Shown: positions 11,466 through 21,492 of the stretch, piece after piece
Numbering within the stretch: position 1 is the stretch's first letter
How the letters are laid out: each line of letters starts with the position of its first letter
Assembly (NCBI GenBank): GCA_016213245.1
Contig: JACRBC010000056.1
Coordinates: 1-64,000, forward strand
Direction: 5' to 3'
DNA: 64,000 nucleotides
Source: Candidatus Solibacter usitatus
GTDB lineage: Bacteria > Acidobacteriota > Terriglobia > Bryobacterales > Bryobacteraceae
Notes under the pieces: generated by a model
The model's input: the letters and a program-made list of their open reading frames with translations, nothing else
What the model was told of the DNA's origin: nothing
Database searches by the model: none
Made by a program: the position numbers and the translations under genes

Positions 11466-13430
11466 ATGCCGCGCCTCATCCCCGTCCCCAGGCAACTGCC
11501 CCAGCCTTCCCTCCAATACCGGTCGGCCGTGGGCAGGTGGATGGCCGGCGGTGAGGCGCTGGACGACTCCACCCATGAGCAGGTCGAGACTCATCCCTGG
11601 TGGAAGGTCATCTGGCTGACCGGCGTCGATTACTTCTCAACTCTCGGCTATCAGCCCGGCATCGCCCTGCTGGCCGCCGGCGCCGTGGCGCCGCTGGCCA
11701 CCGCCATCCTCGTGGCCGTTACTCTGCTCGGCGCCCTGCCCGTCTACGCCCAGGTCTGCGGCCGCAGCTTTGCCGGGCAGGGCTCCATCGCCATGCTCGA
11801 GAACCTTCTCACCGGCTGGAAGGGAAAAGCTCTCGTCCTCATCCTGCTCGGCTTCGCCGCCACCGATTTCGTCATCACCATGACGCTCTCGGCCGCCGAC
11901 GCCGCCAAGCACGCCATCGAAAACCCCTTCCTTCACCCCCTGCTCGGAGACCACCAGATCCTCATCACCCTCGCCCTGCTCACCGCCCTCGCTCTGGTCT
12001 TCCTCAAGGGCTTCAAGGAAGCCATCGGCATCGCCTCGGCCGCCGCCGTCCCTTACCTTCTGCTCAACGCCGTCGTTCTCGGCCGCGGGGCATGGGAAGT
12101 CTTCACGCACCCCACTCTGCTGGCCGATTGGCGCGCCGCCCTCGCCGTCAAAGGCGACATGGCTACCCTCATGGCCGGGGCGCTGCTCGTCTTTCCCAGA
12201 CTCGCCCTCGGCCTCAGCGGCTTCGAAACCGGCGTCTCCGTCATGCCCCTCATCGACGGCGGCGCCGGCGACAAGGACTACAACCCCCGCCTCGGCGCCC
12301 CGCCCGCGGGCCGCATCCGCAATACCAAACGCCTGCTCATCTCCGCCGCCCTCATCATGAGCGTGATGCTCATCGCCAGCAGCTTCGTCACCACCCTGCT
12401 GGTGCCCGCGCACGAATACCAGCCCGGCGGCAAGGCCAGCGGTCGCGCCATCGCCTACCTCGCCCACTCCTACCTCGGCAGCGCCTTCGGCACCGTCTAC
12501 GACGTCTCCACCATCCTCATCCTGTCGCTCGCCGGCGCCTCCGCCATGGCCGGATTGCTGCACCTCGTTCCCCGCTACCTGCCCCGCTTCGGCATGGCCC
12601 CCCAATGGGCCGCTCTCTCCCGCCCGCTCGTCCTGGTGCTGTTTGGCGTCAACATCGTTGTCACCCTCGTATTCCGCGCCGATGTCGACGCCCAAAGCGG
12701 CGCCTACGCCACCGGCGTCCTGGTCCTCATCCTCTCCGCCGCCTTCGCCGCCACCCTCGCTCTCTGGCGTGAGCGGCGCCGCCCTCTCGCCGCTTACTCC
12801 GCCTTCATCACCCTCATCTTTGCCTATACCCTTGTCGATAACTGCCTCGGACGCCCCGACGGCCTCATCATCGGCGCCATCTTCACCCTGCTGCTCATCA
12901 CCGTCAGCGGTGTCAGCCGCTCCGCCCGCTCCATCGAGTTCCGCGTCACCAAGGCCCACTTCACCGATGTGGACACTGCCCGTCTCGCCGGGGAAGTGAT
13001 CGGCAAGAAGGTCCACCTCGTTCCCATCAGGGGCGGCACGCCCGGGGCCCGCGCCGCCAAGAAAGTGGAGATCACCCGCCACTACTCCGTCTCAGGGCCC
13101 TTCCTCTTCGTCCATGTCCACCTGCTCGACAACCGCAGCGAATTCGCCGCCCCCCTGGAGTTCCAATTGCGGAAGGAGGGCCCCGACTACGTGGCTGAGG
13201 TTCACGGCGCCCTCGCCATCGCCAACACCCTGGCCTACGTCAGCGAGTTGATCGACCCCATCTCCATCTTCATCGGACTCACCCGCCAGAACCTCATGAA
13301 TCAGGCCCTCCGCTACCTCATGCTGGGCGAGGGCGAAACCGGCCTCATGGTCTACACCATCCTGCTCAATTACTGGGAGTCGACCCCCGAGGAGGACGTG
13401 CGCCCCCTCATTTTCCTGATGTCCGACTAG
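11466..13430 (+). CDS. APC superfamily amino acid/cation permease
   Basis: The 654-residue integral membrane protein has about 12 hydrophobic spans between residues 45 and 480 and a soluble C-terminal tail of about 160 residues. The opening segment WWKVIWLTGVDYFSTLGYQPG is typical of APC-type transporters, with the unwound glycine motif of TM1. The substrate is not readable; homologous proteins are annotated as amino acid transporters. The start at 11466 has no clear ribosome site; a methionine at 11538 (MAGGEALDD) has an AGGTGG just upstream and may be the real start. It follows the isomerase closely and its last 23 bases overlap the convergent vapC gene. Confidence 0.85.
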   Translation: MPRLIPVPRQLPQPSLQYRSAVGRWMAGGEALDDSTHEQVETHPWWKVIWLTGVDYFSTLGYQPGIALLAAGAVAPLATAILVAVTLLGALPVYAQVCGRSFAGQGSIAMLENLLTGWKGKALVLILLGFAATDFVITMTLSAADAAKHAIENPFLHPLLGDHQILITLALLTALALVFLKGFKEAIGIASAAAVPYLLLNAVVLGRGAWEVFTHPTLLADWRAALAVKGDMATLMAGALLVFPRLALGLSGFETGVSVMPLIDGGAGDKDYNPRLGAPPAGRIRNTKRLLISAALIMSVMLIASSFVTTLLVPAHEYQPGGKASGRAIAYLAHSYLGSAFGTVYDVSTILILSLAGASAMAGLLHLVPRYLPRFGMAPQWAALSRPLVLVLFGVNIVVTLVFRADVDAQSGAYATGVLVLILSAAFAATLALWRERRRPLAAYSAFITLIFAYTLVDNCLGRPDGLIIGAIFTLLLITVSGVSRSARSIEFRVTKAHFTDVDTARLAGEVIGKKVHLVPIRGGTPGARAAKKVEITRHYSVSGPFLFVHVHLLDNRSEFAAPLEFQLRKEGPDYVAEVHGALAIANTLAYVSELIDPISIFIGLTRQNLMNQALRYLMLGEGETGLMVYTILLNYWESTPEEDVRPLIFLMSD

Positions 13431-13815
13431 GCGGCTCGAACGCCTCCAGCGCCGTGTACCGCGCGATCAGCCCGAAGTCCCTGTCCTTGTGCCACACCGG
13501 GACCCTGTTCCGCATCGCCACCACCGCGATCAGGCAGTCGTTCGACGACCGCACCGTCACGCCCTTCCGCCTCAACATGCGGTACAAACTCGCCGCCTCC
13601 AGATAAACCTCGGCCGGCATCGGATCGCACAAAGAGTGGAATGCCAGCAAGTCCCTCTGAATACGCGGTACCGCCCCCTCGGGCTTTACACCCTGCATCA
13701 CCTCCTGCACAACCGGCGGGCAGTGCGCAAACCGGAACGCCAGTCCCTCCTCCGGCGGCAGCGAAGTGGAGCCCCTCAGAAACTCAATCCACAGCGACGA
13801 ATCCACCAGGATCAT
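13408..13815 (-). CDS. vapC: PIN-domain ribonuclease toxin VapC
   Basis: The 135-residue PIN-domain protein begins with MILVDSSLWIEFLRG, giving the first acidic metal ligand (Asp5). It continues with SSNDCLIAVVAM near residue 90 and KDRDFGLIARY near the end, which supply the remaining acidic residues. VapC toxins cleave specific tRNAs or rRNA sites unless neutralised. It overlaps vapB by 4 bp (ATGA), the standard coupled order. The 3' end overlaps the convergent permease gene by 23 bp, so read-through from either side would produce antisense RNA. Confidence 0.9.
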   Translation of the reverse strand: MILVDSSLWIEFLRGSTSLPPEEGLAFRFAHCPPVVQEVMQGVKPEGAVPRIQRDLLAFHSLCDPMPAEVYLEAASLYRMLRRKGVTVRSSNDCLIAVVAMRNRVPVWHKDRDFGLIARYTALEAFEPPSRTSGK

Positions 13816-14057
13816 GTGCCACTCTTCGCGCTATCCACCCTCTCCCATGCATCGTCGAACTTGTGGTCTTCCCTCATCTCGCCCAGATCACCCTCCCACT
13901 CCACTTTGCCGAACAAACTCACCAGGTCCTTGATGCGCGCCTGCCGCACCGCCTCCTTCAACGCCCGGTTGATCGCCCCCGAATACGTCTTCTCCCCGTA
14001 GAACTGCATTGCTTCCTTCAAGACGTCCGCATCAAGCACAACATTCATACGTCTCAT
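13812..14057 (-). CDS. vapB: Type II antitoxin VapB family protein
   Basis: The 81-residue protein opens with MRRMNVVLDADVLKEAM, a VapB/DUF2191-type DNA-binding strand and helix, followed by TYSGAINRALKEAV. An acidic C-terminal tail of the kind that threads into the VapC active site ends the protein. It precedes and overlaps vapC. Translation could start at the first ATG or at the methionine three codons on. On the minus strand a TTGACA lies about 30 bp upstream, but no good -10 stands at 16-18 bp spacing. A direct repeat GTGTAT-AGT-GTGTAT immediately upstream may be an operator for autorepression. Confidence 0.88.
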   Translation of the reverse strand: MRRMNVVLDADVLKEAMQFYGEKTYSGAINRALKEAVRQARIKDLVSLFGKVEWEGDLGEMREDHKFDDAWERVDSAKSGT

Positions 14058-16803: not shown

Positions 16804-18408
16804 ATGCCGGAACTCAGGATTCACATTAGAGGCAGCTTCACCAGGGCTCAGCCCCTCGAGTCTCGCCCCGTCACGCTCGGTCGTTCGCCTGAGAACGATC
16901 TCTCGTTTCCCGACGACTCCGTCCTCTCCCGCCGCCATCTCTCCATCGAGCCCGAATCCCGAAGCTGGTATGCCCTCGACCTCGGCAGCAAGAACGGCAC
17001 GCTGCTGAACGGGCTCAAGCTCACCGGCCGCCATATGCTCGAAGAGGGCGACACCCTCACCGCCGGCGCCGTCACCCTCTCCTACACCGAGTTCTCCGGC
17101 GCCCTCGCCGCCCAAACCGTGATCTTCACTCCCGCGCGCGAGGAACCCACCGGCAGCCGCACCAGCGTTCGCATCAATCTCAAGCAGGCCATCGGCGCCG
17201 GCGAGCCGCGCGTCCAGGCCCTCCTCGACGCCGGCCGCGAACTCGCCGGACACCGGCCCCTCGAGGAACTCTTCCCCCGCATCCTCGACCTCGCCCTCGG
17301 CGCTGTCGGCGCCGAACGCGGCGTTCTCATCACCACCGGCAACGGCGGCCTTCAGGTGCGCGCCGCCCGCGGCGAGGGCTTCCGCATCAGCGGCTCCGTG
17401 CGCGATCGCGTGCTCGAAGGGCGCGAATCCCTCCTCGTCGTCGACGTCAGCAAGGATGAGGCCCTCATGGCCAGCCACACCATCGTCTCCGCCGGCGTCC
17501 GCAGCCTCATGGCCGTCCCCCTCCAGACCGAGGACAAAGTCATCGGCCTGCTCTACGTCGACTCCTCCAACTTCCTCAAGTCCTTCACCCAGGACGACCT
17601 CACCCTGGCCACCGTCCTGGCCAACATCGCCGCCATCCGCATTGAACACGCCCGCCTCATCGAGCTCGCCCAAGCCGAGAAGGTCCTCCAACACGACCTC
17701 CGCCAGGCCGCCGAGATCCAGACCGGCTTGCTGCCCAAGGCTTCCCCCGTCATCCCCGGCTATGACATCGCCGCCAAGAGCGTCCCCTGCCGCTCCGTCG
17801 GCGGCGACTACTTCGACTACGTCACGCTCGAAGGCGGCAAACTCGGCGTGCTGCTCGGCGATGTCTCCGGCAAAGGACTGCCCGCCGCCCTCCTCCTTGC
17901 TGGCCTCCAGGCCCGCGTCCACGTCCTGGCCGAGCAGGCCTCCCAGGCCGACGACCTCATGTCGAAGCTGAATCGCCGTATCGCCGAAGCCTGGCCCGGC
18001 AACCGCTTCATGACCATGTGCATCATCGCCCTCGACCCCGTCTCCGGCGAATTCACCTACTGCAACGGCGGACATAACCCGCCATACCTCCTCCGCGCCA
18101 ACGGCGAGGTCGAGACCCTCACCACCGGTGGTCCCGTCATGGGCATCCTCAAGAACGCCCCCTACTCCGCCGAGTCAGGCGTCCTCCACCCCGGCGACGT
18201 CCTTCTGCTCTTCACCGACGGCGCCAGCGAAGCCGAGGACCCGGCCGGCAACGACCTCGGCGAGCCCGGCGTCCTTGCACTCCTCAAGGCCGCCCACGGC
18301 CGCTCCGCCTCCGATATCGTCTCCTACATCTACGACGCCGTCGGCGCCTTCCTCGCCGGTGGCCCCGCCGCCGACGACGTCACCCTCCTCGCCATCCGCC
18401 GCGTCTGA
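16804..18408 (+). CDS. FHA-GAF-SpoIIE (PP2C-type) serine phosphatase
   Basis: The 534-residue soluble signalling protein has three domains. An N-terminal FHA domain (about 1-100) with VTLGRSPENDL, LSRRHLSIE and KNGTLLNG binds phosphothreonine peptides. A GAF sensor domain spans about 140-290. A C-terminal RsbU/SpoIIE phosphatase domain (about 330-534) carries VGGDYFDY, GDVSGKGLPAALL and FTDGASEAED, where the aspartates bind Mn/Mg. Such proteins dephosphorylate anti-sigma-factor antagonists in partner-switching pathways, but no such partner is encoded nearby. The stop overlaps the convergent membrane protein gene by 29 bp. Confidence 0.93.
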   Translation: MPELRIHIRGSFTRAQPLESRPVTLGRSPENDLSFPDDSVLSRRHLSIEPESRSWYALDLGSKNGTLLNGLKLTGRHMLEEGDTLTAGAVTLSYTEFSGALAAQTVIFTPAREEPTGSRTSVRINLKQAIGAGEPRVQALLDAGRELAGHRPLEELFPRILDLALGAVGAERGVLITTGNGGLQVRAARGEGFRISGSVRDRVLEGRESLLVVDVSKDEALMASHTIVSAGVRSLMAVPLQTEDKVIGLLYVDSSNFLKSFTQDDLTLATVLANIAAIRIEHARLIELAQAEKVLQHDLRQAAEIQTGLLPKASPVIPGYDIAAKSVPCRSVGGDYFDYVTLEGGKLGVLLGDVSGKGLPAALLLAGLQARVHVLAEQASQADDLMSKLNRRIAEAWPGNRFMTMCIIALDPVSGEFTYCNGGHNPPYLLRANGEVETLTTGGPVMGILKNAPYSAESGVLHPGDVLLLFTDGASEAEDPAGNDLGEPGVLALLKAAHGRSASDIVSYIYDAVGAFLAGGPAADDVTLLAIRRV

Positions 18409-19780
18409 CCCGCCCACCGCTCACGTCCAGCACCACCGCCTCCCCCGACTCCAACAACACCCGCGCCTTCTCCTCCTTCATCACGTAGAGCGGCGCGATC
18501 CCCGCCGCGTCCCGGATCCCCGTCTCCGCCCCCGGCGCCAGATGCACGTTGTACATCCCATGCACCTCGAACGGCAGGTCGGCGAATCCAGCCACGAACT
18601 GATCCGTGTCCATCCCCGTCAGCAACAGGGTCTTGCCCGGATGCGCCCGCCCATACGCCACCACACCCTGTATCAGGTCCCGCGCCACGTGGCTCCGCTC
18701 CAGGTTCCACGTCATCACTTTCCACGACGCCGGCAAACATACGGCCAGAAAGAAGACCGCCGCCGCCCCGCCCGCCTGCCATCGCTTCGCCGCCACAGCC
18801 CCTCCAATGATCATGGCGATCCCCACCGATGGTCCGGTGAGCAGGTAATCCATGACGTGTTCCGGCAATGGCAGCACCGGAGCCAGTAGCAGCAGGAATG
18901 CGCCCGCCCCCAGCAGCCCCGTCTTTCGCGCCGCCAGCGCCGCGCCTGCCAGCAACACCGCCATCATCGCCGTGCCCGCCGGCAGCAGCCACGCCGGCCA
19001 ATCCCACAGGAAATGCATCAGCCGCTCCGGCCCCAATGCCATCTCGGTGTAGCTCCAAAGCGTCTTCCACACTCGCCCGTCCACTTGAATCGCATAGGGA
19101 CCTGACCGCGGCGCCGGCGCCACAACAAAATGCAGCACCGTGAACGCGCCCGACACCAGGTACAGCGGCAGCACCCGACGCAGTTTGCTCCTGTCATACA
19201 CCAACGTGTAGAGTGTCGCGATGGCCGGGTACATCACCGCCAGTTCCAGCGCCCCCAGCCCCAGAGTGAAGACCGCCGCCTGCGCCGCGTATCTGCCCTC
19301 CATCAGCAGCCACAGCGCCAGCAGCACGAACAACACGTACTGCGCTTGGTTGTAGATGCACGTCCAGCACAGCACCGCCGCCACCGCCGGACTGGCCAGC
19401 CAGCACACTTGCGTCACCAGCGCCGCCGCCGCCGACCCCGTCAGCCGCCGCATGATCGCCCCCAACACGAACAGGCTCCCCGCCATCGTCAGGAACACAA
19501 CCAACCGGAACGGCAGCGGATTCACGCCGAACAGCGCCTTCAGCCCGTAGAAGAACAGGTTCTCGCTCCACGGCCGGATGTTGCCGTGCGCCTTCGGCGC
19601 AAACAGAATCTGCAGAAAGTCCCCAAAGTCCTTGGCCGGGCCCAGGTGCAGCCACCCGAAGTCGTCCTGGTAAAACCAGCAATCCAATCCCCGCCAGTAG
19701 AAGGCGAAGAGGAACGCGCACGCCGCCACCGCCGTCCAATGGCGGCCGAGCCACTCGCGACCCTTTACCCGTGCGCTCAC
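18380..19780 (-). CDS. Multi-pass membrane protein, GT-C glycosyltransferase-like
   Basis: The 466-residue protein has about ten hydrophobic spans between residues 15 and 365 and a soluble C-terminal domain of about 100 residues. In the first external loop CWFYQDDFGWLHLGP carries an acidic DD pair placed as in GT-C glycosyltransferases (GT39/GT83-like) that use polyprenyl-phosphate sugars. The family assignment rests on this layout only. It stands alone, convergent with the phosphatase gene and divergent from the PilZ gene. A role in surface glycan or protein glycosylation is inference. Confidence 0.65.
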   Translation of the reverse strand: MSARVKGREWLGRHWTAVAACAFLFAFYWRGLDCWFYQDDFGWLHLGPAKDFGDFLQILFAPKAHGNIRPWSENLFFYGLKALFGVNPLPFRLVVFLTMAGSLFVLGAIMRRLTGSAAAALVTQVCWLASPAVAAVLCWTCIYNQAQYVLFVLLALWLLMEGRYAAQAAVFTLGLGALELAVMYPAIATLYTLVYDRSKLRRVLPLYLVSGAFTVLHFVVAPAPRSGPYAIQVDGRVWKTLWSYTEMALGPERLMHFLWDWPAWLLPAGTAMMAVLLAGAALAARKTGLLGAGAFLLLLAPVLPLPEHVMDYLLTGPSVGIAMIIGGAVAAKRWQAGGAAAVFFLAVCLPASWKVMTWNLERSHVARDLIQGVVAYGRAHPGKTLLLTGMDTDQFVAGFADLPFEVHGMYNVHLAPGAETGIRDAAGIAPLYVMKEEKARVLLESGEAVVLDVSGGRVRRGGWRGG

Positions 19781-19944
19781 CTCAGCGGAGCGTACCAGCC
19801 CGCCGCACGCCCGCGCAATGGCCGCGGGCAGCCCCTACCCGTTGCCTCGCCGGAACTGTTGCCTCGCCGGAACTTGTTCGCCTTCACATCGGTGGAGTAT
19901 TATCATTTTCAGCGTATCCAATATTAAGGGCGGCCCCACCGCTC

Positions 19945-20739
19945 ATGGCTGACCAGCGAAAACACACTCGCACTCCCACCGCCGGCGATGTAGATGTCCA
20001 ATGGAACGACTCCGCTGGAAACTCCTTCCGCCTCACCGGCGCCTGGAGCGATCTCTCCGAATCAGGCGGCGGCTTTCAGCTCTCCCGCCACATCAAAGTA
20101 GGCGCCCAGGTCCGCATCGATAGCCCCAGCTTCGGCATCTCCGGCCTGGCCATCGTTCGCAATTGCACACCGCAGAAGGGTCTCTTCCGCGTTGGCGTCG
20201 AGTTCCTCGAAGGCCTCGACTGCCCCTACTGTGGAGCCCGCCTGGGCCCCGGCGTCCATCGCTGCCCCCGCTGCCGCAACACCCCGCTCAAGCCCAAGCT
20301 CTGCGCCCTGTGTGGTCTTGCCGGTCACCCTAAAGACGTGAGTTGCTACCTGACCAACGGCTTCCCTCCCGCTGATACCCCTGCCCACATGGGTTGGTCA
20401 GCCCACATCTCCTGCCTCGATGCCCTCCGCATGGCCATTCTTCGCCCCTGCTCCTCTCTCCGCTGTCTCCAGTGCCGCGCCCCCGTGGAATTCTCCTCCC
20501 TTCACGCTCTCACGCCTGGACAACTCCTCCCCTGCCGCCGCTGCTCCGCCTCGCCCGCCACCCTCCAGGCCGCCTGGGGCCCTCGCCCCTTCTCCTGCTC
20601 CATCTGCGATCTCGCCATCTACCAGCAGGTCCACGAAACCTGGCCCGGTTGCGACGAAGCCTCTTGGCGCTCCGGCGACGCCGCCTTCCTCCACGCCGTC
20701 CACCTCCCCTGCGCCCTTCGCCTCGGCTTCAAACATTAG
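19945..20739 (+). CDS. PilZ domain protein fused to a multi-CxxC zinc-ribbon-like region
   Basis: The start at 19945 (MADQRKHTR) fits the PilZ N-terminus, so the longer track ORF is rejected. RKHTR (residues 5-9) and DLSESGG (36-42) match the RxxxR and D/NxSxxG motifs that bind c-di-GMP. The PilZ barrel ends near residue 90 and is followed by six CxxC pairs: CPYC 93-96, CPRC 107-110, CALC 120-123, CLQC 174-177, CRRC 197-200 and CSIC 218-221. The C-terminal 170 residues therefore look like repeated zinc ribbons. A c-di-GMP-responsive protein with a metal-bound output region is the simplest reading; the output is unknown. Confidence 0.82.
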   Translation: MADQRKHTRTPTAGDVDVQWNDSAGNSFRLTGAWSDLSESGGGFQLSRHIKVGAQVRIDSPSFGISGLAIVRNCTPQKGLFRVGVEFLEGLDCPYCGARLGPGVHRCPRCRNTPLKPKLCALCGLAGHPKDVSCYLTNGFPPADTPAHMGWSAHISCLDALRMAILRPCSSLRCLQCRAPVEFSSLHALTPGQLLPCRRCSASPATLQAAWGPRPFSCSICDLAIYQQVHETWPGCDEASWRSGDAAFLHAVHLPCALRLGFKH

Positions 20740-21414: not shown

Positions 21415-21492
21415 TGGCGTCCCCAGCGGGATTCGAACCCGCGTTATCGCCGTGAAAGGGCGGTGTCCTAGGCCGGGCTAGACGATGGGGAC
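21415..21492 (-). tRNA. tRNA-Glu (anticodon TTC)
   Basis: On the minus strand the sequence folds as GTCCCCA...TGGGGAC acceptor stem, a D arm, an anticodon loop CTTTCAC with anticodon TTC, and a T arm with GGTTCGAATCC. The 3' CCA is encoded. It closely resembles the E. coli tRNA-Glu. It lies between the HEPN remnant and the cytochrome gene, at the point where the strand's GC skew changes sign. Confidence 0.95.

Follow-up and report, generated by a model that had tools for sequence, protein, structure and literature searches.

The window analysed here is a 64,000-nucleotide stretch of the Candidatus Solibacter usitatus contig JACRBC010000056.1 (Acidobacteriota, Bryobacterales), and the element in question is a complete gene at 19945..20739 on the forward strand, whose 264-residue translation joins an N-terminal PilZ domain to a C-terminal tail with four predicted metal sites. 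In an alignment of all three genes, both full-length homologues start at the ATG equivalent to that at 19945, and one of them (L069) has a clear AGGAGG before its ATG; an alternative in-frame start lies further upstream (GTG 19771). Translation and motif positions confirm the open reading frame (ORF) of the original prediction, with its coordinates, its RxxxR (R5-R9) and DxSxxG (36-41) motifs and its six CxxC pairs. The numerous overlapping shadow ORFs could be taken to mean that this is not a gene, or that the CxxC pattern arose by chance in GC-rich DNA, but this is very improbable: the full-length homologues, at two unrelated loci, keep all of the predicted metal ligands.

The PilZ domain (residues 4-89; 19954..20211, +) matches PF07238 above the Pfam cut-off (25.4 bits against 22.5, E 1.8e-5; 27.4 bits in the genome search), bearing out the earlier assignment. 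Strands at residues 15-87 are of moderate local confidence in the AlphaFold model, and a fold search with the modelled N-terminal barrel ranks PilZ structures with bound cyclic di-GMP (c-di-GMP) first (BcsA, Alg44 and VCA0042), at E > 0.001; a phmmer search of PDB sequences found no significant relative of the PilZ part. The motif definition for c-di-GMP-binding PilZ domains is RxxxR plus [D/N]xSxxG (PMC7288161; PMC11800159). The canonical binding residues are all present: R5 and R9 in RKHTR (19957..19971, +), both invariant in the homologues, and D36, S38 and G41 in DLSESG (residues 36-41; 20050..20067, +), of which D36 and G41 are invariant and S38 is alanine in one homologue. The source genome has eight GGDEF matches and one EAL match, so that c-di-GMP is probably made. 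From the motifs and these GGDEF/EAL proteins we infer that the PilZ domain most likely binds c-di-GMP via R5/R9 and D36-S38-G41.

The tail was originally described as six CxxC motifs spaced like zinc ribbons. The six CxxC motifs, starting at residues 93, 107, 120, 174, 197 and 218, and a conserved metal-site region fused to PilZ stand; two HxxC pairs (154-157 and 253-256) had been missed, and the order is ribbon, CxxC..HxxC, ribbon, CxxC..HxxC. Six CxxC and two HxxC pairs make 16 ligands, and therefore four complete four-ligand sites. Two CxxC pairs per site are found in sites 1 and 3 only, a pattern invariant in five proteins. Site 1 is a predicted zinc ribbon (C93, C96, C107, C110; 20221..20274, +) with sub-threshold similarity to Zn_Ribbon_1 and DZR, and site 3 (C174, C177, C197, C200; 20464..20544, +) has sub-threshold similarity to a LysW-like ribbon. 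Site 2 (C120, C123, H154, C157; 20302..20415, +) and site 4 (C218, C221, H253, C256; 20596..20712, +) are not ribbon-like. In a low-confidence model of the tail, site 2 has a knuckle, strands at 42-49 and 59-65 and a helix at 66-80 starting from the HxxC, as in treble-clef fingers; the site is probably treble-clef-like.

The architecture and the ligand sets rest on conservation. When the C-terminal part is shuffled, 0.15% of the resulting sequences have at least six CxxC. Across the window protein and its two homologues 76 of 264 positions are invariant, and all 14 site cysteines, together with H154 and H253, are among them (hypergeometric P 6e-10); four further cysteines lie outside the sites, and C74 is the only one retained. 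The metal in the four sites is presumably zinc. Comparing profiles of the two tail halves gives E 2e-5 over 38 columns, and the tail looks like one two-site unit used twice.

No model in Pfam or NCBIfam covers the tail above its cut-off. This profile search of the C-terminal half, proposed as a check with the original prediction, leaves the tail outside the widely annotated domains. The Zn_Ribbon_1, DZR and LysW-like families resemble sites 1 and 3, all below their curated cut-offs (17.1 against 25 bits for Zn_Ribbon_1, 14.8 against 27.3 bits for DZR), and do not cover the CxxC..HxxC sites 2 and 4. A search of PDB sequences with the tail gave no significant relative, and its fold search gave nothing significant, with short matches of ∼23 residues to Ran-binding/NZF fingers at E > 1. 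The module is therefore not represented by any entry of Pfam, NCBIfam or the PDB.

A search of 237 genomes of the family yielded only two full-length homologues of the PilZ-zinc protein, both in one metagenome-assembled genome of the same genus (Bryobacterales isolate clean682; contigs DAHVTI010000007 and DAHVTI010000460) and about 40 and 37% identical to the window protein. A third copy in that genome (C381) is truncated and contains an in-frame stop. Another genome holds a remnant (L038:6158-6592, G002:C60) that keeps the leader and the C-terminal part. It has lost PilZ, site 1 and the first half of site 2, its DNA passing straight from the conserved leader to around codon 151, and the remainder has stops and frame shifts. 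Genes resembling a protein kinase and an alpha/beta hydrolase flank this remnant. Within the part shared with the window gene, differences at codon positions 1/2/3 number 25/18/42, a pattern that indicates past selection on the protein. Public contig scans gave no match with a single-protein query and only the two known loci with an alignment query; plasmid, phage and viral collections gave no match.

A phylogeny built from 89 PilZ domains of relatives groups the three fusions on one branch (99/92 support). In a sample of 93 PilZ ORFs of relatives, 90 contain at most one CxxC and none of these carries the four-site tail; zinc tails on other PilZ proteins of the family were considered and rejected, as the three ORFs with at least two CxxC are all PilZ-zinc fusions. 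The fusion has a single origin and is confined to the genus of the window organism: the PilZ-zinc protein is real but rare, with a small, lineage-restricted distribution. Such a pattern, with only three intact copies in the family genomes and remnants making up two of the five copies, would suit a fast-decaying protein whose PilZ domain has lost c-di-GMP binding and whose zinc tail is structural or minor, as would the DxA that replaces DxS in one homologue. We consider this unlikely, because R5, R9, D36 and G41 are invariant, all 16 ligands are retained at 37-40% identity and third-position changes are in excess.

The four-site module also occurs without PilZ. Across the same family genomes, a tail-only profile found a 250-residue ORF in G366 (E 2.1e-5, positions 3-99, half of the profile), and the profile extended with this protein found a second in G318 (E 3.6e-19), which shares 36% identity with the G366 protein. 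Both proteins (L149/L155, G366:C45:109294-109854; L161, G318:C24:16519-17064) lack PilZ, come from two other genera of the family and match the fusion tail in all 16 ligands and their order; they differ from it in a longer loop between the cysteine pairs of site 3 and in a C-terminal hydrophobic helix, a probable membrane anchor. In a five-way alignment of the three fusions and the two PilZ-less proteins all 16 ligands are invariant, and a profile of the fusion tails compared directly with just the G318 protein scores E 7e-4 over 142 columns. Distant homology between fusion tails and PilZ-less proteins is proposed with moderate confidence only, because patterns of zinc sites may evolve repeatedly. 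The presence of the 16-ligand module without PilZ indicates a separate module that works without the c-di-GMP receptor. The G366 gene has next to it a ParB-like ORF, possibly a methylase of phage type. Among other matches, a weak one in G216 was rejected as chance, with stops inside, and those in G737, G114, G144 and G298 were rejected as short zinc-ribbon similarity rather than the four-site module; a weak match in G362 (E 8.8e-5) has seven internal stops.

The gene at 19945..20739 stands alone in the window. A leader 24-72 bases 5' of the ATG (19873..19921, +) is 77.6% identical over 49 bp to that of the G002 remnant and is a possible promoter or leader; a consensus scan of the leader strand found no sigma-70 site. 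Upstream lie an FHA-GAF-SpoIIE phosphatase (RsbU-like; 16804-18408, +) and a convergent ORF with no Pfam match (18380-19780, -), whose end the phosphatase ORF overlaps; downstream are a cytochrome c gene and a tRNA-Glu (TTC; 21415-21492, -). A VapB-type antitoxin and PIN-domain protein pair lies elsewhere in the window (13408-14057, -).

The window protein may well be a soluble c-di-GMP effector, a PilZ-gated adaptor whose four-zinc module binds a partner. The N-terminal PilZ domain would bind c-di-GMP, and the compact C-terminal module, with four structural zinc sites, would recognise a partner macromolecule, more likely protein than DNA. Binding of c-di-GMP to PilZ would alter the orientation or availability of the zinc module, as in other PilZ adaptors; both this allosteric coupling and the type of partner we infer. 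With the PilZ receptors BcsA, Alg44, YcgR and VCA0042 (PF07238) the window protein has in common RxxxR, DxSxxG and a predicted PilZ fold, but it has no YcgR-N, GAF, glycosyltransferase or membrane part. An N-terminal MJ0042-type ribbon with a PilZ-like domain may exist in myxobacterial or deltaproteobacterial proteins, in which case the position and number of sites differ. In the open literature searched, no PilZ-zinc-ribbon protein is described.

Nucleic acid or protein binding had been offered as the output, and the analysis gave no evidence favouring the former. Nucleic-acid-binding proteins often contain zinc ribbons, the full protein has an isoelectric point (pI) of ∼9, and the tail weakly and non-significantly resembles the ribbons of ribosomal L32 and reverse gyrase (E 0.1-0.7), all of which would fit a zinc module that binds DNA or RNA under the control of a PilZ switch. 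Such a protein would recall the PilZ transcription factor MrkH, which is not known to have a zinc module. The likeness holds only if the tail binds DNA, and, unlike the window protein, MrkH is a YcgR-like protein (PMC7288161). We regard a c-di-GMP-responsive nucleic acid binder as rather unlikely: library, PDB and fold searches matched no nucleic-acid-binding family significantly, the C-terminal half is only mildly basic (pI 8.5-8.9) with no conserved basic surface shown, and two proteins probably carry the related module on a membrane anchor. The protein-binding adaptor is favoured because the module seems membrane-anchored elsewhere and the tail is mildly basic; ending in a probable membrane helix, the PilZ-less relatives indicate that the module is useful without access to DNA.

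Several points weigh against the adaptor. The AlphaFold models are weak (mean predicted local distance difference test score ∼57) and do not fold the C-terminal half reliably; one homologue has the DxA variant; and no neighbours are common to the window, the two homologue-bearing loci and the G002 remnant, so that synteny indicates no partner. The tail duplication is plausible, not proven, because the similarity between the halves is confined to their cysteine-rich parts, and the evidence linking the tail to the PilZ-less proteins consists of E 2e-5 across half of the profile, E 7e-4 in direct comparison and ligand order. More tentatively still, the tail could be a new, mobile module of this Bryobacterales family that uses four zincs for recognition, either membrane-anchored or c-di-GMP-controlled, and the fusions a class of zinc adaptors, gated by a second messenger, that has so far gone unrecognised.

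The general importance of the protein is limited by its narrow distribution. The architecture is new and built on a known receptor domain: PilZ proteins relay c-di-GMP mostly via protein contacts, and new architectures reveal possible signal connections. The metal module joined to the receptor here is conserved and has four sites; it is nameless in the libraries and seemingly also occurs alone on membranes. The literature searched holds almost nothing on c-di-GMP signalling in Acidobacteriota, and c-di-GMP-gated partner binding, if true, would be a new output for it in this phylum.
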